From contig JAKQCX010000005.1 in the NCBI GenBank assembly GCA_029558905.1, positions 62,001 through 126,000 on the forward strand: a DNA stretch of 64,000 nucleotides, read 5' to 3'. Numbering within the stretch: the stretch's first letter is position 1; each line of letters starts with the position of its first letter. The notes under the pieces are model-generated. The model worked only from the letters and a program-made list of their open reading frames with translations, was not told the DNA's origin and did no database searches. Of the stretch, positions 44,085-60,334 are shown in pieces. Source of the DNA: Pseudomonadota bacterium (lineage in GTDB: Bacteria; Pseudomonadota; Gammaproteobacteria; Burkholderiales; Thiobacillaceae). The translations under genes were made by a program, and so were the position numbers.

Positions 44085-44094
44085 GATGGCGCCC

Positions 44095-45728: not shown

Positions 45729-45745
45729 GGGTGTTTCCTCCTGAA

Positions 45746-46996: not shown

Positions 46997-47124
46997 TTGA
47001 AGCCTCGTCCTGATGCGGCCGCCCACGTCGAGGGCAGCCGGGAATAACGCAAATACTTACGTCAAATCCGGCGAGGTAATCGCGACAACGAGGGAATCGA
47101 GGGACGCGCCAACCTGCCGGAGCT

Positions 47125-47475
47125 TCAGGCGAGGTCGACTAGAGGGGGGCGAAACAGGGAGCTTGGCGGCGGGGTGGGCAGGAAGGCCCGGTAAGCCATG
47201 GCAGCACGGACTTGCGAAACCGGAAGCATGGGCGAATCGGCGTCGATGACGGCTTGCGCGAAATGCGCGTGGCAACTCGGGCAGTCGGCATCGAAATCGC
47301 TATTGCCGGAATCGCTGTCCGTTTGGGCAGCGCTGGCCTGATGTTCATGCGCGTGGTGGCCGATGTGCTGCTGGGCTGGACCATCCGTTTCGTGCAGGCA
47401 ATAAGCTGCCACCGCCGCAGTGGTCCACTGCAGCGGCAGGATAAGCAGGAAAAGGATGGCTACAAGCTTGCGCAT
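47125..47475 (-). CDS. czcI: CzcI-like periplasmic protein
   Basis: 116 residues with signal peptide LPLQWTTAAVAAYC, in which Cys follows the hydrophobic core as in CzcI (LPLQ...AAYCxHE). The mature part is His-rich (HIGHHAHEHQ) with a C-x-x-C-H-A-H cluster (DCPSCHAHF). CzcI-type proteins are encoded before czcC in cobalt-zinc-cadmium efflux operons and are thought to modulate expression. No clear ribosome-binding site is seen before the ATG. Confidence 0.7.
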   Translation of the reverse strand: MRKLVAILFLLILPLQWTTAAVAAYCLHETDGPAQQHIGHHAHEHQASAAQTDSDSGNSDFDADCPSCHAHFAQAVIDADSPMLPVSQVRAAMAYRAFLPTPPPSSLFRPPLVDLA

Positions 47476-47485
47476 GTCGGGGAAG

Positions 47486-47590
47486 CTAACACAGCGCGCG
47501 CGTGCCGCACAACCGCAAGACCTGGGTGGCTATCAGGGTGGCGGGCATGGCCAGGGCGAACATCAGGGTATTGCGCTGCATCGATTTCAT
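47486..47590 (-). pseudogene. Remnant of a Met-rich protein gene (copy of 32392-32892)
   Basis: The first ten codons (MKSMQRNTLM) equal the start of the Met-rich protein gene at 32892, and the following FALAMPA resembles its signal core, but a stop arrives after 34 codons and the His/Met-rich body is missing. It occupies the same position relative to the CusF-like gene in both clusters (cusF then Met-rich gene). This shows that the two metal clusters derive from one ancestral arrangement. Confidence 0.7.
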
Positions 47591-47629
47591 GTCCCCCGTG
47601 GGTAGGAAAAGTCGCTCATTGAGACTGCC

Positions 47630-47989
47630 TCAGCGGCCGGGTTGCAGCGCGGTAATCGTTAAGGCGCCATCCAGGCGTTCCACCACGAAACGGATGCGGT
47701 CGCCGGGTTTGACCTGGTCGAGCCAGGCGGGATCCGTAACCCGGAACATCAAGGCCAAGGCGGGCATGTCCGGATTGTCCGGATCCAGGTTGGCCAGTTG
47801 GGCCAGGCGCACATTGCTGACGGCGATCTTGCCGATATTGGAGTTGATTTTCTTCACGGTGCCGTCGGTCCAGACCCTGTCCTTGGCTTGTTCGGCATGC
47901 ATGACGTGGCCGTTGTTGTCGGCGGCCAACACCGGAAGTTGGGGCGCCATGAAGAGGCCCGCAATAAGGGTGAGCGTGATGAATTTCAT
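47630..47989 (-). CDS. CusF-like periplasmic copper-binding protein, copy 2
   Basis: 119 residues from ATG 47989 (TGGAGAA upstream). Signal peptide (VLA-AD), then VWTDGTVKKINSNIGKIAVSN, MPALALMFRVTD and KPGDRIRFVVERLDGALTITALQPGR. Against copy 1 it has an insertion of about eight residues (AQLANLDPDNPD) and the key M-x-M pair is changed (MPAMTM to MPALAL), and the His before the strand is Asn-Val, so copper binding may be lost. It may be drifting after duplication. Confidence 0.8.
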   Translation of the reverse strand: MKFITLTLIAGLFMAPQLPVLAADNNGHVMHAEQAKDRVWTDGTVKKINSNIGKIAVSNVRLAQLANLDPDNPDMPALALMFRVTDPAWLDQVKPGDRIRFVVERLDGALTITALQPGR

Positions 47990-48063
47990 GCCGTTCTCCA
48001 TTCAGTTCAATCATAAGTTTGGGCATTACCATGGTCCATGGCGGAGAAATTTCCGCCCTATTG

Positions 48064-48086
48064 GAAGCGGGGGTTACCCCCGCTTC
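48064..48086. terminator. Strong 10-bp hairpin between the CDF gene and cusF copy 2
   Basis: GAAGCGGGGG, loop TTA, CCCCCGCTTC is a perfect stem. It lies downstream of the CDF gene stop (48118). There is no T-run on either side, so termination or transcript-end protection is only a suggestion. Confidence 0.45.
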
Positions 48087-48117
48087 GCTGTGCATTTGCT
48101 GACCCGGAAACTGGGGG

Positions 48118-48750
48118 TTAATGCAGAGGAACAGCCAGAACCAACTCGGCACGCGCGTGCCGCACAACCGTGACCGAGGCCGTCAAGGCCAGAGTCGCCA
48201 TCACGCCCGCCACCAGCAGATCGGGCCAGGCCGAGCCGGTGCCGAATACGCCTAGGGCGGCGAGGGCCACCGCCACGTTGCCGATGGCGTCGTTGCGGCT
48301 GCACAGCCAGACGGAACGCATGTTGGCGTCACCGTTGCGCCAAGCGTAAAGCATGATCGCCACGCCGACATTGACCGCCAGGGCCAGCAGGGCCACCAAT
48401 CCCATGGTCATTGGCTCGGGCGGGATGCCCAGTGAGGCGGCCCAGGCGGTCTTAGCCAATACCAGGATGCCGTAGACGCCCATAGTGACGCCCTTGACCC
48501 AGGCTGCACGTGCCCGCCAGGCCAGTCCCATGGACAGTACCGCCAATGAGAGGCCGTAGTTGGCGGCGTCCCCCGCGAAATCGACTGCATCGGCCAACAG
48601 GGACACCGATCCGGATTGCAGGCCGCCGCCGATTTCCACAAAGAACATCACGGCGTTGAGGACAAGCGCCACCCACAATACACGCCGGTAACGCGGTGAC
48701 ACGGCGGTACTGGAGGACTCACAACTTCCGGTGCAGGAGCAACCTGACAT
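48118..48750 (-). CDS. Cation diffusion facilitator (CDF) transporter
   Basis: 210 residues with a Cys-rich N-terminus (MSGCSCTGSCESS) and about six membrane segments. CDF family motifs are LLADAVDFAGDAANYG in helix 2 and SRNDAIGNVAVALAA in helix 5, giving Asp-x3-Asp-type zinc-site positions. It lacks a long cytoplasmic C-terminal domain, so it is a short CDF. These proteins exchange Zn2+/Cd2+ for protons at the inner membrane. A MerR-type promoter with 19-bp spacing drives it from 48781-48811, divergent from the CadR-like gene. Confidence 0.85.
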   Translation of the reverse strand: MSGCSCTGSCESSSTAVSPRYRRVLWVALVLNAVMFFVEIGGGLQSGSVSLLADAVDFAGDAANYGLSLAVLSMGLAWRARAAWVKGVTMGVYGILVLAKTAWAASLGIPPEPMTMGLVALLALAVNVGVAIMLYAWRNGDANMRSVWLCSRNDAIGNVAVALAALGVFGTGSAWPDLLVAGVMATLALTASVTVVRHARAELVLAVPLH

Positions 48751-48780
48751 GGTTATGAATTTCGGTGATGAGATGGCCGC

Positions 48781-48811
48781 ATTGAAAACCCTGGAGCCGC
48801 TCCGGGGTCAA
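48781..48811 (-). promoter_or_regulatory. MerR-type promoter/operator for the CDF gene
   Basis: Read on the minus strand: -35 TTGACC (48806-48811), 19-bp spacer and -10 TTCAAT (48781-48786). The spacer holds a near-perfect palindrome, ACCCCGGAGC and its mirror GCTCCAGGGT, at 48788-48808. An overlong 19-bp spacer with a central dyad is the hallmark of MerR-family activation by DNA untwisting. Confidence 0.8.
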
Positions 48812-48846
48812 GAGGGTAAAGTCATGTTCTTGATTTGGAGTGAGCC

Positions 48847-49323
48847 ATGCGCATCGGTGATCTGGCGAAAGCCACCGGGGTGGATATCGAGACCATCCGC
48901 TATTACGAGAAGGCCGGACTGCTGCCCGAGCCCGGACGCGAGGCCAATGGCTACCGTGCCTACCAGCAGGCTCATCTGGAACGACTGGCCTTCATCCGTC
49001 ATTGCCGGGCATTGGACATGCCCCTGGAGTCGATCCGACGCCTGCTGGATTTCGTCGCCCACCCAGAGGCGGAGTGTGGCGACATCAACCGGCTGATCGA
49101 CGAGCAATTGGCTCGTGTGCAGGCGCGGCTCAACAGCTTACGCGCACTGGAGAGCCAACTTGCTGCGTTGCGGGCGCAATGCGGAGAAAACCACAGCGCA
49201 CGGGAGTGCGGTATTTTGCATGAATTGGTGGCAGCAGCACATGGCGAGGCTTGTGCATGCCATTTCGATGCTAAATCTGGCAGTCATTATTTACTCATGG
49301 GGAAACAAAAAAACCGCCCATGA
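48847..49323 (+). CDS. cadR: CadR/PbrR-type MerR-family metal regulator
   Basis: 158 residues. N-terminal MerR helix-turn-helix (MRIGDLAKATGVDIETIRYYEKAGLLPEPGR), a dimerisation helix (about residues 80-118), and metal-site cysteines C77, C112 and C121, the pattern of the Cd(II)/Pb(II)-responsive clade. It should activate the divergent CDF gene on Cd, Zn or Pb. The last codons (MGKQKNRP) are read from a transcription terminator of the opposite strand, and the His-rich tail common in CadR is absent, so the C-terminus may be a junction product. Confidence 0.88.
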   Translation: MRIGDLAKATGVDIETIRYYEKAGLLPEPGREANGYRAYQQAHLERLAFIRHCRALDMPLESIRRLLDFVAHPEAECGDINRLIDEQLARVQARLNSLRALESQLAALRAQCGENHSARECGILHELVAAAHGEACACHFDAKSGSHYLLMGKQKNRP

Positions 49324-49684: not shown

Positions 49685-52381
49685 TCAGGCCACCAACTGC
49701 CTGGCCAGTGCCACTTCGATGGAATCACCCGACTGGTTCAACACGTCCAGCCCCGACTCGGGCATGTCGCCCGAAGTCGATTGAGCCACGGCGATCTTCT
49801 TCGCCATCAGCTCAAGGCAGGCCAACTGCGCCGTGCCCTGGTAGCCCAGGAAAACCACGTCCACTGCTTGCTTCTGGCCGATCCGCCAGGAACGGCGGGC
49901 GGCCTGTTGCAGGGTGTAGACGTTGTACCCGGACTGTAGGAACACGATGGTCGGAAACTCCAGCAGGTCGAGACCGGTTTTCACCAGCTCGGGGTTGGTT
50001 ACCAGCACGTCGATGCCGCGGTCGACCTGGTCGGCGACCCAGTCTTCACGCTTCTCGGCGGCCACGCTGGCGCTCAGTGTTGCCACCTTGAGACCTTCGG
50101 CCGAAAGCAGGGCCTTGAGTCTTGCCGTGGTGTCACGGGTGCCCGTATAGACCGTGTAGACCAGGACACGACGTCCCCTGGCTTTCTCGGCCTTCACGCG
50201 CTCGATGAGCATGCGCTCCTTCGGCATCGGCTCCGAACCGTCGAACAGCGCCGGCACATGAGCCAACACGCGGTCGCGACGATGCGGGTGGACCACGTGC
50301 TCCTCGCGGAACGCGCAATCCGGCCACGCCAGCAAGGCGTTGAGCACCACCCCCAACAGGCTGTGGTCACCGGCACGCAAGGCATCTTTCAATGCCTGTT
50401 TCAACGCGCCTTCCAGCTTTCGATACCACTCTTGCTGGATCGGCGTCATGACCACCCCGTCGAAATGTTCCTCGTAGGGAGGCAGGACATTGCCGCCGAT
50501 CTGCTTGAGCTTCAGGAACGCGCTGATCGGCACCACATAGCGCATGATGCCGTTCGGCCCGAAGCCCGGTCCCTTGGTCGCGCGATGCATGGTCTGTCGA
50601 CCGCGCGCCGTGCGATGGGATCGGGCTTCGTCGTCACTTTTGGACTTGTAGATGTCCTTGATGACGCCATGGGCTCGCAGGAAGCCCATGGAGGCCGGCC
50701 CGAGTGAGCCGCGCCGCGAATAGCCGAAACCGTCCTCCATCATCGCCTTGGGTTGTAGCCGCCAGAGCAGGTAGAAGAGATCGTCGGCATAACCGCCCAT
50801 CAGCGTTCCGGTCAGGAGCAGCGTTTTGCTGCATTTCCTGGCCAGCACGCCGAAGGCCTGGCCCTGGGCGGAGCCCTCGTTCTTGAACTCGTGACCTTCG
50901 TCGACGATGAGCAAGCCGAAGTAGCCCTGAGGCAGATAGCGCTTGATGAACTCGGTCGGCTGGTAGCCGCCTTGCCCAAAGCTGAACTCGGAGTTGGCCA
51001 TGGCCCGCTCCATCCTGGTCGCCTGGCGATCGGAGAAGAACAGGTCGCCATCCTCGTCCATCAGGTTGATGAACTCGTAGACGTTGTCCTCCAGCATGTC
51101 GCCCAGCATTGTGGCGCCGAACTTGCCCAGCAAACGCTGGGCTGTCTTGGCGCCGATCGTCGGCAGTTGCTGCATGGCCGCGAGCACCATCTCCTCCCGC
51201 GACTTCGCCGAGGCCTGCGGACGGGTCAACGTCCACAAGGCACCGTGGCAATGCGGGCAGAAACGGCGTTCCTTGGCCAAGTGCATTTCCGCCAGGGCGG
51301 GATTGAGGGACGCATCGTCCCCATCCGTTACCCAGGCGTAGCAGCTCGGACAGCAGGCGACCTGAGTCCCGCCTGGAATCGTCGTCTCGCCGGCCTCGAC
51401 CGTTTCGACGACGCGCTTGATGATGAAGGCAGGCTTCCAGTGGTAACCCATGCGCATCCGCACCCTGCCCATCACGAAGAACTCGGGATGGAGGGGCGCC
51501 TCGCGCATCTGCCGTAGCGTCAGGAGCTTCTTGAGCGTGTCGGGGCCGTTCAGCACCCAGACCCGCGCATTCGGCACCGTCTGCTTGATCTCCCGCCGCC
51601 ACTTGTAGACCAGGTGGGGAGGGCAGATCACCAGGCTGCGTGGATAGCCTTCGGCATGGGCGACCGCGGCGGCCGCGATGGCCATCATGGTCTTGCCCGT
51701 GCCCATCTCGGCGTTGATGATGCCGGCCGGATCGTTTTCATCGAAGAGCAGCGCGGCGATGGCTTGCACCACCTCGCGCTGGGCAGGGAAGGGCGCCCGG
51801 GTGAGGGCGTCCATCACCGCCTCCCGCCGGGCATCCGGCAAGCCGGAATACACGGGCGGGTTCTGCCTGCGCACGGCTTCGAGCAGGCCCGAGCCGAACG
51901 ATGAAACGAACTCCGACAAAGACAGCACCGACGGATCCGCGAGCGGGGCGATGTCGCCATCGAACCGCTCTTCTTGCATCCTGACGCCCTCGTTGGTCCG
52001 CTGGTAATACGCGGTCACGGCCTCGTCCTTGGTGCGGGGCTGGAAATACCGGTCTACCTCGATGCGCGGCGCGGACCCCGGCAACCCGGACAGACCGGCT
52101 TGCAGTTCGGCCAGCTCGTCGATGGAGACGGTGCCCCATTCGTCGTAGTGCAGGCCGGTGACGAAGCCGAAGCCGATCCGTCCCTCGGCGTCGTATTCGG
52201 TCAGCCACCAGGTGGCCGAGCCGAAGGCGTCGAAGAGCTTGCAGATGACCCACTGTTCCGGGGCATCGGCCGGCTTCGGATGTGCGGCGATGAACGCCAG
52301 GATGTCCGTGTGGAGCGCGTTATCGGCGCCCACTGGGGCGATGGACGTGGTGACATGAAGGGTATGGTGTTCTACGTGCAT
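49685..52381 (-). CDS. SNF2-like DEAD/DEAH-box helicase with zinc ribbon
   Basis: 898 residues from ATG 52381. An N-terminal region of about 200 residues precedes a superfamily-2 helicase core: Walker A MGTGKT (226-231), DEGH box (494-497), SAT-like LTGTLMGG, and in the second lobe TNPELVKTGLDL and QAARRSWRIGQKQAVDV, the SNF2-type motif VI. A four-Cys zinc ribbon (C344-x2-C347, C375-x2-C378) is inserted between motifs I and II. Such large ATPases are common in ICE backbones; nucleic-acid remodelling or defence interplay is possible. A structured leader precedes it. Confidence 0.85.
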   Translation of the reverse strand: MHVEHHTLHVTTSIAPVGADNALHTDILAFIAAHPKPADAPEQWVICKLFDAFGSATWWLTEYDAEGRIGFGFVTGLHYDEWGTVSIDELAELQAGLSGLPGSAPRIEVDRYFQPRTKDEAVTAYYQRTNEGVRMQEERFDGDIAPLADPSVLSLSEFVSSFGSGLLEAVRRQNPPVYSGLPDARREAVMDALTRAPFPAQREVVQAIAALLFDENDPAGIINAEMGTGKTMMAIAAAAVAHAEGYPRSLVICPPHLVYKWRREIKQTVPNARVWVLNGPDTLKKLLTLRQMREAPLHPEFFVMGRVRMRMGYHWKPAFIIKRVVETVEAGETTIPGGTQVACCPSCYAWVTDGDDASLNPALAEMHLAKERRFCPHCHGALWTLTRPQASAKSREEMVLAAMQQLPTIGAKTAQRLLGKFGATMLGDMLEDNVYEFINLMDEDGDLFFSDRQATRMERAMANSEFSFGQGGYQPTEFIKRYLPQGYFGLLIVDEGHEFKNEGSAQGQAFGVLARKCSKTLLLTGTLMGGYADDLFYLLWRLQPKAMMEDGFGYSRRGSLGPASMGFLRAHGVIKDIYKSKSDDEARSHRTARGRQTMHRATKGPGFGPNGIMRYVVPISAFLKLKQIGGNVLPPYEEHFDGVVMTPIQQEWYRKLEGALKQALKDALRAGDHSLLGVVLNALLAWPDCAFREEHVVHPHRRDRVLAHVPALFDGSEPMPKERMLIERVKAEKARGRRVLVYTVYTGTRDTTARLKALLSAEGLKVATLSASVAAEKREDWVADQVDRGIDVLVTNPELVKTGLDLLEFPTIVFLQSGYNVYTLQQAARRSWRIGQKQAVDVVFLGYQGTAQLACLELMAKKIAVAQSTSGDMPESGLDVLNQSGDSIEVALARQLVA

Positions 52382-52448
52382 GATGATCTCCAGAGAGTGC
52401 GGAGACACCCTGCCCCTAGCGGGAATGGCGTCCCCGCGAGGGTGGTTG
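52382..52448 (-). promoter_or_regulatory. Structured leader L1 (Shine-Dalgarno hairpin) of the helicase gene
   Basis: In RNA order: CCC-TCGC-GGG stem, CCC-GCTA-GGG stem, then TCTCC (52401-52405) pairing with the Shine-Dalgarno GGAGA (52387-52391), then ATC and ATG. One of nine similar leaders in this block. Confidence 0.7.
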
Positions 52449-52465
52449 AAGCTGAAAAAGGCAGA

Positions 52466-53203
52466 TCAGGCCGCGAGCGACATGTCCTGCCGGTTGGTTG
52501 CACCGGTTTCGGCCTGGCGCGTGAGCACCCGGCGTTTGACCAGATCGGAAATGGCCTGGGCAAAGTGCTCGCCCAGATCGATCAGCGAGGCCTGGACAGG
52601 CCCCAGGGTTGGCCAAGTGACCCTGGCCAGGTTTTGCGGACTGAGTTCCGTGATGATGGAATCGCCCAACTGCTCAAGTACCGGCGACATCCAGCCATCG
52701 CCCAACGGCACCGGCGAGATGCGCTGGATCATCGACCAGACCGATTGCAGATGGTCTTGGCCCTCGTTGCCGAGGGTCAGCACCCAGGCCCGGCCGTTGG
52801 CCGTGTCCGGTTCGATCACCTGCGGGTCGTAGATGAAGACATGCGAGACCGGCCCGAACAAGGACCGACGCGGCAGTTTGCCGGCCAGCTTGGTCAGCCG
52901 CGAGGCGTCGCCGATGAAGGCGACACCCCGAGGGTCATCCCCGGCCGGCGCTTCGGGATGCAGCGGAACCACGCCCGCCACGCCGTCACCCAGCCGAGGC
53001 GGGGCCTCGACCTGTTTCAGGGTGATGCGGTCGACGCCGCCCGATGAAACCGGCAACGAGAACGCCGCCAACAACTGCTGTATGGCGGTGTCCCGGCCAT
53101 ACAGCGAGGCGAACATGAGCTGGCCCGCTTCGTTGCGGACCAGCGCGTCGAGAAAGACATCCGAAAACTCCCGAATGCCCCATAAAGGTGAAGATGCAGC
53201 CAT
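52466..53203 (-). CDS. Unknown 245-residue protein of the ICE backbone
   Basis: 245 residues from ATG 53203 (GGAGG at 7 bp, inside leader L2). No signal peptide or membrane helix. The sequence contains FASLYGRDTAIQQLLAAF, VAFIGDASRLTKLAGKLPRR, a SHVFIYDPQVIEP strand, and AWVLTLGNEGQDHLQSVWSMI, suggesting an alpha/beta cytoplasmic protein. I recognise no family. It is cotranscribed with the helicase gene (18 bp between its stop and the leader) and has both the short and the long leader module upstream. Confidence 0.7.
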   Translation of the reverse strand: MAASSPLWGIREFSDVFLDALVRNEAGQLMFASLYGRDTAIQQLLAAFSLPVSSGGVDRITLKQVEAPPRLGDGVAGVVPLHPEAPAGDDPRGVAFIGDASRLTKLAGKLPRRSLFGPVSHVFIYDPQVIEPDTANGRAWVLTLGNEGQDHLQSVWSMIQRISPVPLGDGWMSPVLEQLGDSIITELSPQNLARVTWPTLGPVQASLIDLGEHFAQAISDLVKRRVLTRQAETGATNRQDMSLAA

Positions 53204-53479
53204 GACGAGCCTCCAATGAATCGTGAGGCTCGCCCCGGTGGGGGCGTGCCCCACAAGGGTTGATGATCGACGGGGAAAACCGCCTTGTTCCCGGCGCCAG
53301 GCGCCCGATCCGGTTTCAGGGATGACCGGACCTCGATGCTTACGGCATCGGCGGGTCGAAAACCGTTCGACCAGCGGTGGTGCCCGCTATGGCCAAGGGC
53401 CTTTTTGCAGCGTCCGCAGGATGGCGGACGCTGTAGAAAGACCCCTCGAAGAGGGGTAAAGGGAGGAGCCGGATGAAGC
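53204..53479 (-). ncRNA. Long structured leader module, copy C (includes leader L2)
   Basis: The whole 276-nt intergenic region is structured. Near the ATG, CGAGCCTC (53206-53213) pairs perfectly with GAGGCTCG (53225-53232), sequestering the Shine-Dalgarno; CCCC-CAC-GGGG and CCC-TTGT-GGG stems precede it. Further out: a stem with loop TTTCAGGGATGA between TCCGG and CCGGA (about 53311-53332), GGTCGA/TCGACC around AAACCGT (53354-53372), a 17-bp hairpin (53401-53440) and ACCCCTC/GAGGGGT (53441-53457). Confidence 0.65.
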
Positions 53480-54580
53480 TCAGCGTATGGTCAGCACGTC
53501 CCCGAAGGTCATGCTCCCGGCCGTGAAATCGATGGCCCGGATCACCGGCACGAAGCGATCGGTCAGGATGCGCGTCTCGGAGACGTTGCCCTTCGCATCG
53601 GTCTCATGCTGGACCGTCACTTCCTTTTCCTTGTAGGTCGCGCCCTTGATCAGAAAGGTGCGGCCATCCTGTGCGTCCACGAAGCCGCCGATCTGGCCCG
53701 CCGCCAATCCCAGCGCCAGGTGCCAGTCCGACAGCATCCGCAAGGGACGCCGATGGGCCTGAGCCTGGGCGCTGAAGGTGCGCGGGAAACTCGGCCAGAG
53801 CGTGCTGGCATGATGCTTGACGATCTCCGCCGCCAGTTCCGGTCCGTTCAGACGAATCGCCTGGAAGACCAGATCCTCGCCGACGGCCGCTTCCGGTACC
53901 AAGAGCGGCGCATGCGGCCAGGCCTCGGGCAGTTCAGGCGGCAGAGTGTCCTTCACCGCCATCAAGGCCTCGACCTGCCCCTTGGTGGGGGCGGCCGGCC
54001 GGCGCTTGATGCCGAACACCACCATCTGCTTGAACTGCCGTTCCGGAGCCGACCAGGCCGTGAGGTTGGAGAAATGCCGGCACAAGTAGTTGGCCATCTC
54101 CTCGCTCATGACAGTGTGCGGCACGATGAAGACCAGCACTCCGCCGGCCTGGAGCCATCCCGCCGTCTTGCGCAGGAACATCAGCTCCAGCCGTTCGCTG
54201 TGTTTGCCATCCCCGGTCTGCCCGGTATCGGCCACGGTCTGGCCATAGGGCGGGTTCAGGAACAGCAGGCCGGCCGACCTGGCGGATACCCAGGCATCGT
54301 TCATATCGGCATGGAGCACGGTGTCGAGCAGTTGCTTGGCGTGCCAGGCACGTTCGGCGTCGAACTCGATCCCCAGCGCTTCGACCATGGCGCCGGCTTC
54401 GGTCAATGCGTTCTTGACCTCGGCCAGGGCCACGCCTTCACCGCAGCACGGGTCCGCGATGCGTATCCGGCTGCCGGTGATGTCCAGCGCGTTGAGGATG
54501 CGGCCGAGCGTGACCTCGTCGGTCGGGAAGTAGCCGTTTTTTATAAAGTTGCGGGCGAGCCGCGAGAACATGAGTCCCAT
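53480..54580 (-). CDS. DUF6094-like N6-adenine-type DNA methyltransferase
   Basis: 366 residues from ATG 54580 inside leader L3; the longer in-frame extension crosses the next gene and is not used. SAM-binding motif I is DPCCGEGV (43-50) and the catalytic motif is NPPY (109-112, LFLNPPYGQT), the order of an N6-adenine methyltransferase. No obvious restriction partner or target-recognition domain is adjacent, so it is likely an orphan enzyme of the element, protecting transferred DNA or modifying it for regulation. Confidence 0.8.
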   Translation of the reverse strand: MGLMFSRLARNFIKNGYFPTDEVTLGRILNALDITGSRIRIADPCCGEGVALAEVKNALTEAGAMVEALGIEFDAERAWHAKQLLDTVLHADMNDAWVSARSAGLLFLNPPYGQTVADTGQTGDGKHSERLELMFLRKTAGWLQAGGVLVFIVPHTVMSEEMANYLCRHFSNLTAWSAPERQFKQMVVFGIKRRPAAPTKGQVEALMAVKDTLPPELPEAWPHAPLLVPEAAVGEDLVFQAIRLNGPELAAEIVKHHASTLWPSFPRTFSAQAQAHRRPLRMLSDWHLALGLAAGQIGGFVDAQDGRTFLIKGATYKEKEVTVQHETDAKGNVSETRILTDRFVPVIRAIDFTAGSMTFGDVLTIR

Positions 54581-54711
54581 GATGGTCTCCAGGAAATGCG
54601 GAGACACCGAACCCCAGCCGGGGAGGTATCCCCGCGAGGGTTGAGAAAGGATTGAGCCCCGGACCTTGCGGCAGGGACAGTCGGGCGGTGCGTAACTGGT
54701 TTCGAAACGAA
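54581..54711 (-). promoter_or_regulatory. Structured leader L3 of the methyltransferase gene with partial long module
   Basis: GTCTCC (54600-54605, read on the minus strand) pairs perfectly with the Shine-Dalgarno GGAGAC (54585-54590). Upstream stems are CCCC-GGCT-GGGG and CCC-TCGC-GGG. Further out is a GCC-GCAA-GGT stem with a GNRA loop and CACCGCC, as in the long modules, but the other hairpins are missing. Confidence 0.7.
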
Positions 54712-55248
54712 TTACGTGGCAAAACGCTGTTCGACCACCTTGGCCAGGATTCGGGGAGGAATGCGGTACCGACAGCCGCCGTACTCGCCCACGAGGCGTC
54801 GACCTTGCTTGGAAACGATCTTGACCTCGGGGATCGCAAGACCCTCGAAGATCAACACATCGCCGATTTCGACCTTGCGGTTGCGCGCGGCATGCCAGGC
54901 GCGCACTTGCTCCCGCCATGCCGCGTTGGCCACCGGCACCATGTCCAGGTAGGACAAGGGACAGGTGTAGTAGCAAGGCCCCATGCTTTCGCAAAGATCC
55001 TTGTAGCCCCAGCCTTCGCCTTTCCTGCCCGGCGCCAGCAAGTCGCAGCCGATATAGCGATAGGGCGCCCTGTAGGCCATGGGCGGCTTCGGCTCGGCGG
55101 GGGTGACCACCCATACCGTCCAGAGCACATTGCCTACCGCCGTGTGGCGCAGGCATTCCCAGCGGGTGCCATCGGCTTGTGTGGCCGACCGGGTGCGCTC
55201 TTGGATGAGCTGCTTCCGGTTGCTATCGAAGGTAATGGTCCATCCCAT
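54712..55248 (-). CDS. Unknown 178-residue protein of the ICE backbone
   Basis: 178 residues from ATG 55248 (GGAGGAA in leader). The protein begins GWTITFDSNRKQLIQERT, contains VLWTVWVVTP and CDLLAPGRKGEGWGYKDLCESMGPCYYTCPLSYLDMVP, with four cysteines around residues 83-117, and ends with an SH3-like segment (VEIGDVLIFEG, IPEVKIVSKQGRRLVGEY). No family is assigned. It reads as a cytoplasmic protein with a possible metal site. The long leader module precedes it. Confidence 0.72.
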   Translation of the reverse strand: MGWTITFDSNRKQLIQERTRSATQADGTRWECLRHTAVGNVLWTVWVVTPAEPKPPMAYRAPYRYIGCDLLAPGRKGEGWGYKDLCESMGPCYYTCPLSYLDMVPVANAAWREQVRAWHAARNRKVEIGDVLIFEGLAIPEVKIVSKQGRRLVGEYGGCRYRIPPRILAKVVEQRFAT

Positions 55249-55530
55249 GATGATTTCCTCCATGCTGAGCCGAAGGAAACGCGCGCCCTCCAGGGCGGCG
55301 AAGCACCCCGGCGGGTTGAGATAAAACCCCGGATGGGGCGAATTTAATGAAGTCCCGGACCTTGCGGCCGTGTTCGTTTCAGGGACTGACGAACGGCGAT
55401 CCTTGACGGGGAACGGGCGGGCTGTAACCGACAGCCGGCGGTGGAACACGGGTGGCGCTAGGCCTTTCCTGGGCCGTTGCGGCGGCGGCCCAGGAAAGGC
55501 CCCTCGATGAGGGGCCATATTGAAGAAGGA
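55249..55530 (-). ncRNA. Long structured leader module, copy A (includes leader L4)
   Basis: 282 nt between two genes. Near the ATG, TTTCC (55275-55279) pairs with GGAAA (55254-55258). Then GCCCT/AGGGC and CCC/GGG stems, a GGCC-GCAA-GGTC stem, GTTCG/CGAAC around TTTCAGGGACTGA (about 55372-55394), GGCTGT/ACAGCC (55420-55436), a perfect 15-bp hairpin (55461-55475 with 55487-55501), and GGCCCCTC/GAGGGGCC (55498-55516). The last two share 4 bp and cannot both form. Confidence 0.68.
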
Positions 55531-56376
55531 TCAGGACTCCGATATTTCCCGGAGAGCGATCTGCACAATACAATCGAGGTTCAGATTGTCGATGGATCGG
55601 CATTTGGACTCCGCGCGTTTGCACGCGTCGAGAACCGCCTGGGCGACATGCATTACGACCCGCCCATGGTTCGCCATTTCCCCATCGCCGACCTTATGGG
55701 TAACGACGTGGGTGGATGATGAATAGCCGCTTTCCGATTCCGCATTCCATACTCCGGCGACGAAGTCGGGATCGACAGCCACGCCATGGGAGATGATCGT
55801 GGCCAAGGTGGGCGAGCCACCGCTCTGCGGTACCTCGACGGCGCCTTCCGCCACATCGTCCATGTCGTAATCGAGCACGATGAGTTCCACCGGCATGTCG
55901 GACGACGCACCTTGGACCAGTCCGCCCTCGACACCGACCACGACGCAGGGTCGGGGCGGCTCAGGCATCCTGGTTGGATGGCCTTCCACCGCCATTCGTG
56001 CCAGTCGATATGCGGTTTCGACGAGCGATTGCTCATAGGCACTGGGCGTCGGACCGTTCTTGCCGCGCATCGACTCCTCCACCACCAGTAGACGGCAGGC
56101 CTCCATGGCATTCGCCGTGCGGCGTTGCTGGAGCACGCTGGCATCCGAAGTCGGCCAGGCGTCCACCGTGGCCACCACTTGGAAGTCCAGCGTTTCGCCT
56201 TCCTTCTCCTCATAGTCATCGAAGAGGAGGGGCATTTCCGGGGTGTCGTCCCATATCGTGCCGTCATCGAAGGCGGCCTGCGCCTTGGCGATGGCCTCTT
56301 CGTCGCTATCGGACGGGATGCCGACCTGTACCCGGTGGGCGTAATCGATGGTGTACTCGACGATGCGCAGGTTCAT
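55531..56376 (-). CDS. Unknown 281-residue protein of the ICE backbone
   Basis: 281 residues; the ATG overlaps the stop of the small upstream gene (ATGA). The N-terminus (LRIVEYTIDYAHRVQVGIPSDSDEEAIAKAQAAFDDGTIWDD) resembles a small alpha/beta domain; it continues with DTPEMPLLFDDYEEKEGETLDFQVVATVDAWP. A second part (PPRPCVVVGVEGGLVQGASSDMPVELIVLDYDMDD) is typical of short ICE proteins of unknown function. It ends with a Cys-containing helix (CKRAESKCRSIDNLNLDCIVQ). No signal peptide. The function is not known to me. Confidence 0.72.
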   Translation of the reverse strand: MNLRIVEYTIDYAHRVQVGIPSDSDEEAIAKAQAAFDDGTIWDDTPEMPLLFDDYEEKEGETLDFQVVATVDAWPTSDASVLQQRRTANAMEACRLLVVEESMRGKNGPTPSAYEQSLVETAYRLARMAVEGHPTRMPEPPRPCVVVGVEGGLVQGASSDMPVELIVLDYDMDDVAEGAVEVPQSGGSPTLATIISHGVAVDPDFVAGVWNAESESGYSSSTHVVTHKVGDGEMANHGRVVMHVAQAVLDACKRAESKCRSIDNLNLDCIVQIALREISES

Positions 56377-56609
56377 GACGTGCCCTCCTGTGCCAGTTCA
56401 AGCTCCTTGGCGCCAAACAGCGCGATGCGTTGTTTGGCGCGGCGCGTGGCTTCGAGCTGGACATACCAGTACCCGCCCGAGTCGCGGCCGAATGGGTTTT
56501 CACGGACGACGATGCCGATGCGGCCGGGATACTGAGGCCCGCCGAGGCGGTCTTGCTTGCGCTTGACCTTGACCCTGTCGCCGATGGCGATGGTTGATGA
56601 TTCACTCAT
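56373..56609 (-). CDS. Small KOW/SH3-like protein
   Basis: 78 residues from ATG 56609 (GGAG in leader L5). The sequence IAIGDRVKVKRKQDRLGGPQYPGRIGIVVRENPFGRDSGGYWYVQLEATRRAK has the basic, Gly-turn pattern of a KOW/SH3-like barrel, which often binds RNA or protein. It overlaps the 281-residue gene by 4 bp. Since it is short, basic and co-expressed with genes under structured leaders, RNA binding is an attractive but unproven idea. Confidence 0.65.
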   Translation of the reverse strand: MSESSTIAIGDRVKVKRKQDRLGGPQYPGRIGIVVRENPFGRDSGGYWYVQLEATRRAKQRIALFGAKELELAQEGTS

Positions 56610-56672
56610 GATGTTCTCCAAGAAAATGCGGAGGCACCCTGCCCCGGCAGGGCAAGGCGCCCCGCGGGGTGA
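56610..56672 (-). promoter_or_regulatory. Structured leader L5 of the KOW-like gene
   Basis: CTCC (56630-56633, RNA sense) can pair with the Shine-Dalgarno GGAG (56616-56619), the weakest of the set. Upstream stems are GCCC-TGCC-GGGC and the palindrome CCCCGCGGGG. Confidence 0.6.
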
Positions 56673-56683
56673 TGAAAAAACGC

Positions 56684-57298
56684 TTAGATCAGACCTCTTT
56701 CCGCCATGGAAAGAGTCTGGTTGCCGGCGACGATGAAATGATCCAGAACCTTGACGTCGACCAGGCTGAGCGCTGCTTTCAGCTGATCGGTCAGCCAGCG
56801 GTCGGCCTGGCTGGGCTCCATCGTTCCGGATGGATGGTTGTGGCAGAGGATGACGGCACAGGCGTTGTATTCCAGGGCGATCTTGATGACCTCCCTGGGG
56901 TAGACGCTGGTCTGAGTCAGCGTGCCGCGAAAGCACTCCCGCGAGGCGATCAGCCGGTTCTGCGCATCCAGAAACAACACGACGAAGGCTTCGTGAGGCA
57001 GGTGCGACAGCGAGGTGATCAGATGGCTGCGCACGGCCCCCGGAGAGGACAACGCATCCCGATGACGCAAGGCCTCGGCGAAGCCCCGCGTGACCAGCTC
57101 GCGAGACACGTCGAGGATCCGCCGGACACGGTTCCATCCATCCTCGGCAGCGGCTTCACAAACCCGATGATCCACCGCGGACAGGCTGAACAGCTGGTAC
57201 AGCGATCCCTGGTTTTCCTGCAGGAGATTCTCGGCGGCTTGGGTGCCGACCAGAACCCCCAGCAGATCAAGGTCCGACATTTGAGAGGAGAGAGGCAT
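56684..57298 (-). CDS. radC: RadC-family JAB/JAMM-domain protein
   Basis: 204 residues from ATG 57298 inside leader L6. The C-terminal domain carries the RadC JAMM motif: Glu103 (PHEAF), HNHPSG (153-158) and Asp166 (PSQAD), ending [19 protein letters not shown]. The N-terminal helical part is divergent from chromosomal RadC and lacks a clear HhH. RadC-like proteins are frequent on ICEs; a role in DNA repair, recombination or anti-restriction has been suggested. Its presence under the leader type described here fits the radC RNA motif literature. Confidence 0.9.
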
Positions 57299-57365
57299 GA
57301 TGGTCTCCGATGAGGTGGAGACACCTTGCCCCCGAGCGGGAACCGTGTCCCCGCGTGGGTTGAAG
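57299..57365 (-). promoter_or_regulatory. Structured leader L6 of radC
   Basis: GTCTCC (57317-57322, RNA sense) pairs perfectly with Shine-Dalgarno GGAGAC (57303-57308). Upstream: CCC-GCTC-GGG and CCC-ACGC-GGG stems. Confidence 0.72.
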
Positions 57366-57408
57366 GAAATATTTCGAAAGTACAGAGAGGCTTGACTCGG
57401 ACGGACGC

Positions 57409-57588
57409 TCAGGCAGGTGTCCAATTGCCGTCGACCAAGGCTCTTGCGGCGTCCAAATAGGTCGGATAAACCTCTTCGGATACCCGGCAGTAGCACTGCA
57501 AGTCCTCGTCGTCGGCATAACCGGCAATGAAAAAGCCTCTTCCGGGGGCGTAACTGATGATCAGCTCCGGTAGCGTTTCAATATCCAT
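57409..57588 (-). CDS. 59-residue protein, short paralogue of 57994-58209
   Basis: 59 residues from ATG 57588 (CAGGAG upstream). Sequence: acidic N-terminus ([20 protein letters not shown]), then [27 protein letters not shown]. The segment [21 protein letters not shown] matches SEEYFPSLEAAEAALESGNWT of the 71-residue protein encoded 400 bp upstream, so the two are paralogues of a small ICE family. No function known to me. Probably cotranscribed with the 29-residue micropeptide. Confidence 0.65.
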
Positions 57589-57647
57589 CTCGGTCTCCTG
57601 GGTGCAAAGGTGCGGCAAGCGAAATGCCTGCTCTTTCGGGGGAGTGG

Positions 57648-57737
57648 TCAAATCCAACCGGCCCGATACAACACCGGCCGAATCAAGCTGAAATACAGGG
57701 TGAGCCCGAAGGCCGCGCACAAGGTGAAAGCGAACAT
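57648..57737 (-). CDS. 29-residue single-helix membrane micropeptide
   Basis: ATG 57737 is preceded by AGGAGG at 8 bp and the open frame ends at TGA 57648. The product is MFAFTLCAAFGLTLYFSLIR followed by nine residues ending RAGWI: one hydrophobic helix with a basic end. It is too short for usual gene callers but has an excellent start region and the complete 256-nt leader module. Membrane micropeptides of this kind can regulate transporters or act as toxins; nothing in the sequence decides. Confidence 0.6.
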   Translation of the reverse strand: MFAFTLCAAFGLTLYFSLIRPVLYRAGWI

Positions 57738-57993
57738 GGTGGATCCTCCTGGAAAGCGGAAACACCATGCCCCTGGCGGGGAACGGAATCCCCGCGTGGG
57801 TTGAGATGAAGTCCCGGACCTTGCGGCCGTGCTCGTTTCAGGGACTGACGAGCGGCGATCCTTGACGGGGATCGGGCGGGCGGAAACCGTCTGCCGGCGG
57901 TGGAACAAGGACAAGCCAAGCTGGCCTTTCTTCAGGGCGGTCCCTCAAGAAAAGCCCCTGGGTGGAGGCGTGGCATCCACCCAGGGCGAGGCT
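57738..57993 (-). ncRNA. Long structured leader module, copy B (includes leader L7)
   Basis: 256 nt, nearly identical to copy A for about 100 nt (57805-57905). Paired changes relative to A: GCTCG/CGAGC in place of GTTCG/CGAAC around the same loop TTTCAGGGACTGA. Other elements: GGCGGA/TCTGCC (57879-57895), a near-15-bp hairpin (about 57922-57954), and CCCTGGGTGGA/TCCACCCAGGG toward the upstream gene. Near the ATG, TTTCC can pair with GGAGG. Confidence 0.68.
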
Positions 57994-58209
57994 TCAGATT
58001 TCGTACTCAAGCTGAGTCCAATTCCCCGATTCGAGCGCCGCCTCGGCGGCTTCGAGGCTGGGGAAATATTCTTCCGACTCGCGGCTGTAGGGCCCGTCTT
58101 GGGGATGGACGGTGCCGATGAAATAGCCCGTCTCGCTCCGGCAAACCTGGAGGGGCAGGGCGACGTTGAAACACAGTTTGGCCAGATGGCCGATCTTTTC
58201 GGGTGACAT
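57994..58209 (-). CDS. 71-residue protein, paralogue of 57409-57588
   Basis: 71 residues from ATG 58209 (AAGGGAG upstream). Begins MSPEKIGHLAKLCFNVALPL, then VCRSETGYFIGTVHPQDGPYSRESEEYFPSLEAAEAALESGNWTQLEYEI. A small alpha/beta-type protein with two cysteines, no signal peptide. Its C-terminal half resembles the 59-residue protein nearby. No recognised function. It has no SD-hairpin leader of the common type. Confidence 0.65.
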   Translation of the reverse strand: MSPEKIGHLAKLCFNVALPLQVCRSETGYFIGTVHPQDGPYSRESEEYFPSLEAAEAALESGNWTQLEYEI

Positions 58210-58598
58210 GCTTACTCCCTTCTATTCTCTTGATTGGAACTGGGTTCCGGTTGCAATTATGCCGCGCGCCTGTCGGTGCGTACTGTTTCAGTGGCGCCAG
58301 TACATTTCGGGTGGCCACGAGGGCCGGAGAAACTCGGCATCCGCCAGCCGGCTCACCGGAACCGGCTTGCGGATGCCCTGGGGGCGGGATGCAACGGAGT
58401 GGGGCGCTGAGATCGTGCCTCCAAGCGGCCACGGAACAGGCGCCGCCGCGTCCGGCAAGGGAGGCCTGGACGCGCAGTTAAGGGATGCGGTTCGGGACAA
58501 CCGCCAACCAGGCTGCAATCGCCGCTCTTCGGGCTCACCCCGGAGGCCTCGTTCAGGCCGCCTGGGTGAACCCGCCTGAGCGGGTTCGAAGGTTGAGA
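58210..58598. other. 389-bp gap holding a hairpin and no clear gene
   Basis: GAACCCGC/GCGGGTTC with loop CTGA (58568-58587) is a strong stem just after the DUF3275 stop and may terminate its transcript. A minus-strand reading frame of about 110 codons crosses the rest but lacks a start region and family match. Its last codons (FLRPSWPPEMYWRH) look protein-like, so a degraded gene is possible. The 58.2 kb end holds the ribosome-binding site of the 71-residue gene. Confidence 0.5.
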
Positions 58599-59141
58599 TT
58601 ACGCAGCAGGCAGTTCCCACATTTGCGTGCTGGCATCGAACCGGTAGCCATGCCCCTTGAGGGCATCGCGTTGAGCCCGGAACAGGCCGCGATCCACGGT
58701 GGGATCGAGCTTGACGGCTTTGCCGGCTTCGATGAGACCATGGGTCTCGGCATCGAACAACGAGGTCTCGGTCGGCGCCGCCAGTAGCTCGTCGGAAACG
58801 GGCGTAGCGGCAGTTTCCTGCACCGGGCGATTCTCGTTCGCCGGATCGGGTTCGACCGACTCCGGCAACGTCTCGGTGTCAGGCGTTTCGGGTTCGCTCT
58901 CGACATGAATCGCCGACAGTCTGGCCCGCACCTCGACCCAGACCTTCCCGCGCCAGGTGTAGCTGGATGGGAAAATCTCCTCGATGACGAACGTCCCGTC
59001 GTAATCGCCGGGGCTGTACTGGTCGAGAATCGCGTCCTTGACCTTGAAGGTGCCCACGCTGGTGGACAGGTCGCCGACGCAGAAAGAACCCTTGCTGCCG
59101 TTGACCGCTTTGATGCTGAGTGTTCCGGTGATGCTGATCAT
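58599..59141 (-). CDS. DUF3275-type ICE protein
   Basis: 180 residues from ATG 59141 (GGAGG in leader L8). N-terminal beta-rich domain MISITGTLSIKAVNGSKGSF, LSTSVGTFKVKDAILDQY and GDYDGTFVIEEIFPSSY; acidic linker (about residues 85-125); C-terminal block AVKLDPTVDRGLFRAQRDAL followed by YRFDASTQMWEL. I recognise this as the DUF3275 pattern, frequent on integrative elements of the SPI-7/PFGI-1 type. Function unknown; the beta domain could bind DNA or protein. Confidence 0.85.
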   Translation of the reverse strand: MISITGTLSIKAVNGSKGSFCVGDLSTSVGTFKVKDAILDQYSPGDYDGTFVIEEIFPSSYTWRGKVWVEVRARLSAIHVESEPETPDTETLPESVEPDPANENRPVQETAATPVSDELLAAPTETSLFDAETHGLIEAGKAVKLDPTVDRGLFRAQRDALKGHGYRFDASTQMWELPAA

Positions 59142-59225
59142 GATGTGCCTCCAGGATGAAAAATGAAGCCCAGCCGGAAGGCGCCACTCCCCTTGGGGAG
59201 CGGACGCACTCCCGGTAGGGATGGG
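59142..59225 (-). promoter_or_regulatory. Structured leader L8 of the DUF3275 gene
   Basis: GCCTTCC (59176-59182, RNA sense) pairs with Shine-Dalgarno GGAGGC (59147-59152) with one bulge. Upstream: CTCCCC-AA-GGGGAG and CCC-TAC-GGG stems. Confidence 0.62.
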
Positions 59226-59293
59226 TAAAACACGAAGCCAAGCGGAGAAATCCGAATGGCGGGTAGGGCAGGGTGCTGCGAGCTCGCCTGGGA

Positions 59294-59728
59294 TCAGGCG
59301 GCAAACCGCATTTCAGCGAAATCGACGGGCATGCCGTCGATCTTCGCGGAAGCGATCTTGAGCAACCTTCCCTTGATTGAAACACCGGTCTGGCCCTGCT
59401 TGGGACCGGACTGGTAAACGAAGGACTCGGGATAGATGTCACCCAAACGGAAGGCAACCGTCACCTTCTGGTTGGCGTTGACCGCGCTCTTGAGGAATTT
59501 GACCCTCTCAAGCGCCTCGGCGCCTTCGATCTTGACATCGAAGTAGGTGGTCTCGGGTGCGTCGATCGAGCCATGCAGTGCGGCGATGGAACAAGCCCAG
59601 AACGAGCCTTTCTTCACCTTCACTTCACGGACGCGATTCAGATACCCGATCCCGTTCACATGCAGATCGAGATGCGTCTTCGGCTTCTCGGCGGCAGCGG
59701 CGGTGGTTTCAGCAGCGGTGGTGTTCAT
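59294..59728 (-). CDS. STY4534-type (DUF3577) ICE replication-associated protein
   Basis: 144 residues from ATG 59728. After an Ala/Thr-rich start, the family pattern follows: HLDLHVNGIGYLNRVREVKV, FWACSIAALHGSID, YFDVKIEGAEALERVKFL and VTVAFRLGDIYPESFVYQSG. I recognise STY4534/DUF3577 proteins of SPI-7-like integrative elements, linked to element replication. It is probably the first gene of the minus-strand backbone operon, next to the 600-bp divergent region. Leader L9 precedes it. Confidence 0.87.
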   Translation of the reverse strand: MNTTAAETTAAAAEKPKTHLDLHVNGIGYLNRVREVKVKKGSFWACSIAALHGSIDAPETTYFDVKIEGAEALERVKFLKSAVNANQKVTVAFRLGDIYPESFVYQSGPKQGQTGVSIKGRLLKIASAKIDGMPVDFAEMRFAA

Positions 59729-59850
59729 AGCGATCTCCTTGATGAAAAAACAAAGGGAGACCACTACCCGCGAGGGGAGTAAGCCTCCCCAGTGGGATGT
59801 GGGTCTTGCGACCCGTTGAAACCGGTTGCCCGGCGGTGGTTGAAATGGTT
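59729..59850 (-). promoter_or_regulatory. Structured leader L9 of the STY4534-type gene
   Basis: GGTCTCC (59756-59762, RNA sense) pairs with Shine-Dalgarno GGAGATC (59732-59738) with one G-U pair. Upstream: CCC-TCGC-GGG and GGGGAG/CTCCCC stems, then GGGTC-GCAA-GACCC with a GNRA loop and the CCACCGCC block shared with the long modules. Confidence 0.68.
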
Positions 59851-60334
59851 TTCCGAAGCGGTGATGACTTCCCCGATCCTATTCAGCGAAATTTCCGCCT
59901 GCGGATGTGGAGGCCAGGAGTGTCGTGCTATCGGAATGAGCCCCCATCAGGGGATGGAGGTGACCTGTTGGGATGCAATCCCGCGCGGTCAAAGAAGGGA
60001 TGTGGCCTCGGCTCTTGCGAGCGTCGCGGTGTCAGAGGCTGACCGCGATCAGGGGACTGGAATGACGCACCAGAAGACGAATCGCGTTACATGCGATTAG
60101 GCGAGCCCGGAGGCCAGAAGGTGCAAAATAGTCGAACAGAAGTGGTGTTGCATGTCAAGGGCTTCAACGGGAACGGCAGCATACGCGCGAGAAAGTCCAG
60201 ATCATCCGACAGACCATGAGGCTCAACTATTGAGCATGGGGTCGAGTAGCATTACAAAAAATTCAAGAAAGGAGTGTGGGGAGTGTTCAGTGAATCCGAT
60301 AGCCAAGTAGTGCGCAGGTCGCGAAGGTAGTTTC
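59851..60334. other. Divergent intergenic region between the ICE-backbone operon and the SMC-like operon
   Basis: No gene is supported. Start signals for both directions must lie here. For the plus-strand operon a weak promoter can be read as TTGAGC (60230-60235), 17 bp, TACAAA (60253-60258). The region is less GC-rich than average toward 60.3 kb. Confidence 0.45.

Follow-up and report, generated by a model that had tools for sequence, protein, structure and literature searches.

Why would most genes of a block on what may be a mobile element begin with the same RNA leader, and how might such a leader work? The question arises from a stretch of 64,000 nucleotides (nt) of a Thiobacillaceae bacterium (assembly GCA_029558905.1, contig JAKQCX010000005.1, positions 62,001 to 126,000), analysed as a whole and called the window below. 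Between 49.7 and 60 kb, its minus strand carries a block of genes for an SNF2-type helicase, a DUF6094 methyltransferase, RadC, DUF3275 and DUF3577 proteins, as assigned by Pfam, together with unknown proteins. A preliminary description had claimed that nearly every gene of this block has a leader whose covarying hairpin buries the Shine-Dalgarno sequence (SD). We found that a covarying fold burying the SD does precede most genes of the block, as swap and column tests bear out. As a whole picture, a single fold nevertheless falls short: it misses a second helix, whose covariation in the swap test is no weaker.

The leader measures about 65 to 80 nt and comprises four strands, with the SD in strand 4. 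Nine copies can be discerned by eye in the window, with ATG at 52381, 53203, 54580, 55248, 56609, 57298, 57738, 59141 and 59728; they cover most genes of the block rather than nearly all, since no leader is visible by eye before the open reading frames (ORFs) starting at 58209, 57588 and 56376. The six hairpins first quoted are present, letter for letter. RNAfold predicts two families of structures, in some leaders near equal in energy. In the closed fold, the 5' half mostly forms one long hairpin, in which CCC (strand 1) pairs with a far GGG outside and GCGGGGA (strand 2) with TCCCCGC inside; the two stem-loops read there earlier (CCC-NCGC-GGG and CCCC-loop-GGGG) are one of several possible parses of the same letters, and not usually the one of minimum free energy. 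The anti-SD strand 3 (GGTGTCTCC) then covers the SD region in strand 4 (GGAG...), often as far as the start codon (helix 3:4). In the alternative fold, GCGGGGACACC pairs with GGTGTCTCCGC over a small hairpin (helix 2:3), the SD is free, and the 2:3 hairpin ends at a U-tract. The two folds are mutually exclusive because both helices use strand 3, of which a median of 9 nt is common to them (at least 4 nt in 85%, n=140). In the full-length leader the closed fold is the more stable one, with a median advantage of 5.9 kcal/mol (n=140), and when the leader is cut at the U-tract the 2:3 helix beats the 5' hairpin in stability in 86% of cases (n=94). Compared with 200 dinucleotide shuffles, the fold z-scores of the nine window leaders range from -1.69 (55248) to -4.46 (59728), eight of them below -2.6.

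Relatives of the block were taken from a helicase alignment, as the best 80 of 510 loci, mostly from Beta- and Gammaproteobacteria by their titles. A covariance model (CM) called R1, made from 27 seeds and holding the closed fold only, gave 395 matches at E<=1e-4 in 85 sources: 8 in the window, 368 in the 80 loci and 19 in four plasmid regions. Five of the 8 window leaders found in this way belong to R1's own seeds, and the ninth, at 59141, was missed. Nearly all matches lie on the expected strand (388, against 7 on the opposite one) and end in ATG, which is part of the model (383); 373 lead into an ORF that has at least 40 codons or stays open to the contig end. At least one match is present in 78 of the 80 loci, three or more in 62. 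A simple pattern search of the same loci gave 123 places, 119 of them on the helicase strand. Among 452 candidates beginning with CAACC, 261 were stable (z below -1.5), 230 on the plus and 31 on the minus strand; this set takes in the window, whose leaders are on the minus strand. Just before the CAACC start, at -8 to -4, lies a U-rich stretch (38 to 58% U in the nonredundant set). At E<=1e-6, 26 of the 274 genomes sampled from the class had leader matches, as had 18 of the 349 sampled from the phylum, the own genome being counted in both; two of the latter lie outside the class, one of them marginal. Below E=1e-4 the own genome has 10 R1 matches, 8 in the window block and 2 on another fragment that carries part of a helicase. 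That fragment (L139, G000:C27:1-16000) holds a second, partial helicase with two to three leaders, and is either a remnant or a second element. Leaders were also seen on elements with partly different gene sets (L130, L134 (G107), L140 (G249) and L138 (G247)); genome G247 has three equal-scoring leader sites, and in G107 the leaders lie on a 320-kb contig.

Do the two helices covary? Within the window alone, the compensatory pairs that had been put forward are inseparable from chance in G/C-rich sequence; the wider set shows real covariation. The alignment-free swap test asks, by duplex energy, whether a leader's own segments pair more stably than exchanged segments of like G+C. For leaders picked without reference to structure (by CAACC, SD, ATG and ORF; 153 of 230 were long enough, and 168 of 230 controls), z was -11.3 for 3:4 and -13.0 for 2:3, against +0.7 for the unrelated pair 2:4. 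For CM-found leaders (190 of 264 nonredundant) it was -16.1 and -22.1. Column counts on 142 distinct rows gave, for the closed fold, 287 cells changed on both sides against 127.5 in shuffles, and a covariation of 0.264 against at most 0.117 when slid, in an alignment fitted to that very fold. The 2:3 helix, which is absent from the R1 model, gave 129 such cells against 72.5 and a covariation of 0.343 against at most 0.190 when slid (0/500); its basal pairs beside the U-tract covary (9:71 and 11:70). In addition, where strand 2 varies, the inner strand 2' changes in the same way as strand 3 (column 40 versus 71, z 6.2; 39 versus 70, z 2.9; controls 0.5 and 1.7). The seed alignment alone is less clear, double-change cells exceeding shuffles and double-change pairs not, and RNAalifold on a 133-row MAFFT alignment of leaders returned no structure. 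Judged on the swap and column tests, both helices, 3:4 and 2:3, covary. The fold might have failed to covary across homologues; swap, shuffle and slide tests found the opposite. A plain SD-sequestering hairpin is an insufficient description, because 2:3 covaries too.

The window copies differ in strength and in preferred fold (all are on the minus strand). The SNF2-type helicase gene (ATG 52381) has a leader at 52379..52446 (R1 71.1 bits, seed) whose two folds are near equal in energy, -29.3 and -29.1 kcal/mol. An unknown gene (ATG 53203) has a leader at 53201..53264 (45.2 bits, seed) with an 8-bp SD hairpin, CGAGCCTC/GAGGCTCG. The leader of the DUF6094 methyltransferase gene, identified by Pfam (ATG 54580; 54578..54645; 71.2 bits, seed), is followed on the map by that of another unknown gene (ATG 55248; 55246..55322; 24.4 bits), which has the weakest fold z-score of the nine. 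The leader at 56607..56676 (46.7 bits) prefers the 2:3 fold (-35.7 versus -30.3) and was scored terminator-like; its gene (ATG 56609) encodes an unknown protein of 78 amino acids (56373-56609), which had no Pfam match at E<=0.01 and by eye has a KOW/SH3-like look, as of a possible nucleic-acid binder. The radC gene (Pfam RadC; ATG 57298) has its leader at 57296..57364 (60.9 bits, seed), and a 29-codon ORF (ATG 57738) at 57736..57805 (61.1 bits, seed). A divergent leader of the DUF3275 gene (ATG 59141; 59139..59224) was recognised by eye, lying outside the R1 matches at E<=1e-4 (fold z -4.09). The leader of the DUF3577 gene (ATG 59728; 59726..59802) scores 31.1 bits and has the most stable fold by z-score.

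The U-tract bears on the meaning of the 2:3 helix. In the CM alignment, U occupies 63 to 77% of each of the four positions past this helix. In CM-found leaders with linkers of at least 13 nt (19 of 94), the U fractions are.68,.79 and.58 at positions 2-4 past the helix, versus.16,.16 and.32 just before the SD. Because the R1 consensus is itself U-rich, the test was redone on CM-free leaders: long linkers (23 of 140) gave.74,.30,.65 and.70 past the helix versus.26,.39,.39 and.35 before the SD, and over all linkers the contrast was smaller (.61 versus at most.54). In both sets, the end of 2:3 fixes the position of the U-tract better than the SD does. That these U residues prolong the SD hairpin was rejected, because the U-tract is still there where GC comes after CTCC. 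By its sequence, the 2:3 hairpin with its U-tract has the layout of an intrinsic terminator, but only about a third of leaders score as one (see below).

What lies upstream of the leaders? The preliminary description had suggested that they may be, or extend, the radC RNA. In the motif table of Weinberg et al. 2010 (PMC2864571), radC (RF01754, Proteobacteria) bears the marks Y, y and ?, the second of which we take to mean cis-regulatory; Rfam's own type for it is Cis-reg, and the literature searched reports no function for it since its description in 2010. A cmscan with RF01754 gave the leader no match of at least 40 bits, none in the window, and none at E<=10 at 49-64 kb. Six Rfam radC RNAs occur in pKLC102 and a Stutzerimonas plasmid, and in every case a leader follows 8-29 nt past the end of the radC RNA; the remaining two of the four plasmid regions have no Rfam radC RNA. 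What survives of the suggestion is the word 'extend', the leader being a module 8-29 nt downstream of the radC RNA.

In the window and at many other loci, compact elements precede some leaders in the same way, with a 3' hairpin loop that pairs downstream to give a pseudoknot. Their structure was read from one of 22 aligned copies; across all 22, 90% of pairs are formed, those of the pseudoknot, which covaries, included (0/500 shuffles). A model, R2, was made from the same 22 seeds, which had been chosen in front of leaders. It gave 119 elements, with a leader within 60 nt in 79 and farther away in 5 (2.4% expected within 60 nt); 35 have no R1 match, of which 9 are followed by a leader-like core with SD and ATG, and others clearly are not. 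With the seeds left out, a leader follows within 60 nt behind 57 of 97 elements (again 2.4% expected). Conversely, 79 of the 395 leaders have an R2 element upstream. In L072, L073 and L074, leaders and radC-like RNAs lie on the minus strand, opposite to the helicase; the system is therefore not bound to one direction. R2 did not find the six RF01754 copies. A Halomonas element matches RF01754 at 25.2 bits (E 0.87), which alone is not significant, and a simple pseudoknot descriptor was uninformative (49 of 150, versus 20 in shuffles). Topology, place and the Halomonas element, with a pseudoknot match seen by inspection, suggest that these elements are akin to the radC RNA, and we call them radC-like. 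The sRNA PesA of PAPI-1 was considered as a possible terminated transcript of this kind and found unsupported, as in the passages of PMC5493400 drawn on here it adjoins pilM2 and is a processed RNA.

Three radC-like RNAs of the window are R2 seeds, and none of them matches RF01754 at 40 bits or above, or at E<=10. The one at 57806..57910, immediately 5' of the 57738 leader, scores 106.2 bits (57806-57903) and shares in the pseudoknot covariation. That at 55347..55451, upstream of the 55248 leader, is a 92% identical repeat of it (102.6 bits at 55347-55444), and a divergent one lies at 53284..53390, upstream of the 53203 leader (53.2 bits at 53284-53380). A weak, non-seed match stands about 200 nt upstream of the 59728 leader (60000..60076; 22.5 bits, E 0.005), and by eye a fragment resembling the 3' part precedes the 54580 leader (54655..54682, overlapping repeat D7); all five are on the minus strand. 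Long inverted repeats, often ..CCTTTCC/GGAAAGG.. or GGTTCCC/GGGAAACC, were seen by eye just 5' of radC-like RNAs, and may be terminators, insulators or RNA elements (window 55461-55503; L050 at about 9713-9748; L027, L057 and L079). On the same strand of the window, a terminator-like inverted repeat with a T-tract, located by sequence and partly by the terminator scan, lies upstream of the 57.9-kb radC-like RNA (57947..57985), and an inverted repeat, CAGCGTCCGC/GCGGACGCTG, located by sequence, upstream of the 53.3-kb one (53402..53436). Do transcripts start here? In the window block, the search for sigma-70 promoters gave no support (1, versus 1.9 expected). In other loci, of the 15 sites with the highest scores upstream of radC-like RNAs, 11 have a -10 box 2-21 nt before the element, but over all such upstream regions a promoter score of at least 8.5 was reached in only 24% (n=92), versus 13% in shuffles and 12% at random places.

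The sequences thus establish both helices, their overlap, the position of the U-tract and the radC neighbourhood. How could these parts act together? We consider it fairly probable that the leader is a two-state translational latch, indifferent to the gene it precedes. On a full-length mRNA the default would be the closed state, with strands 1 and 2 in the 5' hairpin and strand 3 over the SD; opening would come about when strand 2 captures strand 3 and so releases the SD. We take the SD to be blocked in vivo, and infer from its accessibility that the closed fold is off and the 2:3 fold on. Where the U-tract is good, as it is in a third of members, the 2:3 hairpin may also pause or terminate RNA polymerase, the translational latch and such a transcriptional layer being compatible. 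At some transcription units the leader would serve as the expression platform behind radC-type RNAs; on other genes it would act alone, most often 12-17 nt past the upstream stop codon. Possible triggers are the radC RNA, an OB-fold protein, co-transcriptional kinetics or, with no signal, passive insulation.

Several observations weigh against this reading. In the swap test, upstream regions of non-leader genes also give a weak signal (3:4 z=-3.5, 2:3 z=-2.0, 2:4 0.2), and the 2:4 control on the CM-found set is -2.7, not zero. On two of five measures the 2:3 helix shows no excess over shuffles (double-change pairs 6 versus 6.0, pair types 26 versus 24.6). Outer 3:4 pairs are formed in only 54% of cells, the conserved SD and GGGG cores barely vary and hence inform little, and strands 2 and 4 show little or none of the likeness expected of them (z -0.3 to 2.8). 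The two folds come within 3 kcal/mol of each other in only 24% of leaders, and within 5 in 41% (n=140). In the window, the closed fold ranges from about 15 kcal/mol better (59728) to about 7 worse (59141) than its alternative, and some copies need therefore not be switchable. Finally, the terminator score is positive in only 34% of leaders (n=256), and the U-tract, where it does fit a terminator, would make 2:3 an off state.

This last point leads to a possible, though distinctly less probable, explanation, transcription attenuation. Here 2:3 would be an intrinsic terminator before each gene, the 5' hairpin its antiterminator, and 3:4 would silence read-through mRNA; polymerase would be let through by some factor acting where the unit begins, perhaps the radC RNA, by analogy with conAn. 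The start of the U-tract at the end of the 2:3 helix, even in long linkers where it does not follow the SD, agrees with this, as do the covarying basal 2:3 pairs beside it and the positive third of terminator scores, to which the leader at 56607-56676 adds a window case. There is also a precedent: in the passages of PMC8955417 drawn on here, conAn is an RNA element at the start of conjugation operons with many terminator-like hairpins. Most members nevertheless fall under the terminator cut-off, the U-tract is often interrupted by C, and the terminator-like sites of the window block barely exceed those in shuffles (11 versus 6.9, standard deviation 3.0). Moreover, both folds would then be off.

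It is rather unlikely that the leader is a passive insulator, blocking reinitiation and leaky translation from upstream genes, with 2:3 preventing misfolding of the nascent RNA and no signal involved. The distance to the upstream gene speaks for it: 63 of the 310 R1 leaders without an R2 element begin 12-17 nt past the nearest upstream ORF end (ORFs of at least 60 codons in any frame, so that distances are approximate), which, given the footprint of a ribosome, is just beyond a terminating one. A covarying second, mutually exclusive helix exceeds what insulation needs, however, and the 79 leaders behind radC-like RNAs follow those instead, some of them perhaps starting at a promoter.

More doubtful is the proposal that the radC RNA at the start of a unit is a processive antiterminator made of RNA, the combined terminator and SD latch of each downstream gene opening only for transcripts begun with it. 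If true, the two-part system of radC RNA and leader would be an RNA counterpart of conAn in the mobile elements of Gram-negative bacteria.

A further proposal, which we find quite doubtful, is that the element encodes an OB-fold protein, DUF3577 or DUF3275, which attaches to the leaders and turns translation down or up; entering or replicating single-stranded DNA would titrate it and so open the whole regulon. T4 gp32 and the M13 gene V protein, single-stranded DNA-binding proteins that regulate translation, are analogues. Crude k-mer clustering sorts the 360 proteins behind leaders into 165 clusters, that of the helicase (58) having the most members. With that cluster set aside, DUF3577 and DUF3275 are the commonest named families among 70 representatives submitted to Pfam (12 and 7; RadC 5, DUF6094 3, antirestriction 1, most representatives having no Pfam match), and phmmer detects the former in 47 and the latter in 67 of the 101 loci scanned, many of which are short. 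AlphaFold models of both (DUF3577: mean predicted local distance difference test 86, predicted template modelling score 0.73; DUF3275: 82 and 0.45) show their strands in the b-b-b-a-b-b order typical of an OB fold, and the solved structures that match them best are mostly single-stranded DNA-binding proteins, which makes the two proteins candidates, and no more, for a leader-binding factor; the U-rich flank at -8 to -4 would suit such a protein. OB folds are common, however, and these matches are weak: at E<=0.001 DUF3577 has two, one of which is not a single-stranded DNA-binding protein, and DUF3275 none, with template modelling scores of at most 0.42 by query and 0.56 by target among the matches listed. 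By sequence alone, no solved relative was found.

That the leader is the radC RNA itself, or a chance likeness of G/C-rich hairpins, is most improbable: the gene neighbourhood is that of the radC RNA, but the Rfam radC RNAs are separate modules upstream of it, and shuffles, slides and swaps speak against chance.

As to the setting of the block, its closest helicase in the genome collection belongs to a metagenome-assembled genome of Thiobacillus denitrificans (95% identical). The equivalent stretch of pKLC102, which is typed as a MOBH conjugative element, is annotated with an STY4534 family integrative and conjugative element (ICE) replication protein, a DUF6094 protein and a helicase; by phmmer, the first of these is DUF3577. 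Because the pKLC102 counterpart is so annotated, we take the window block to be part of an ICE. Beside it, at 40965-49323, ORFs were noticed by eye that resemble an RND-type metal efflux system, a CDF-like transporter and a MerR-like regulator.

If the leader is a translational latch of the kind favoured here, it points to how integrative elements silence their early genes and switch them jointly. With the leader behind it, the radC RNA acquires an expression platform whose defined strands can be disrupted and rebuilt, so that ordinary reporters can test what this RNA does. The leader would also be a large cis-regulatory RNA family, present in about a tenth of the sampled genomes of the class. 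Rfam 15 holds no match for it in the sequences scanned; at gathering thresholds it matched nothing in the window, and up to E=10 nothing relevant at 49-64 kb. Nor is the leader described in the literature searched, whose reach largely excluded subscription journals.

How does the leader compare with known systems? With the DUF3577 RNA (RF02954) it shares only that this RNA is named after a leader-carrying gene: at 42.6 bits or above RF02954 matches in none of the loci scanned and in 0 of 185 genomes, the own genome has no match at E<=0.01, and identity of the two was rejected, the one weak match inspected (L050, 29.2 bits) covering a gene end and a terminator-like stretch. The radC RNA serves the same kind of mobile-element genes and is a neighbour in cis, and the upstream elements of the window have its 3' pseudoknot topology by inspection; it differs as a separate module, in front of a leader that also occurs alone, and its Rfam model does not reach the radC-like RNAs of the window. 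As in conAn, put and EAR, an RNA element heads units that contain many terminator-like hairpins, which here, unlike there, are mostly weak and gene-proximal, antitermination by the radC RNA being putative. In dual attenuators of the riboswitch or TRAP type, a terminator-like and an SD-hiding hairpin have a strand in common. The leader's two hairpins likewise use one strand, though no aptamer was recognised inside it. A parallel in layout is offered by the translational attenuators of the ermC type, in which pairing of strands 1:2 and 3:4 excludes 2:3, with the SD in strand 4. The leader has the same four strands and the same mutually exclusive pairings; no leader peptide of the ermC kind was noticed, a systematic search lying outside this analysis, and the leader differs in having a U-tract after 2:3, inner strands 2' and 2'' that re-pair, and many copies on a single element.

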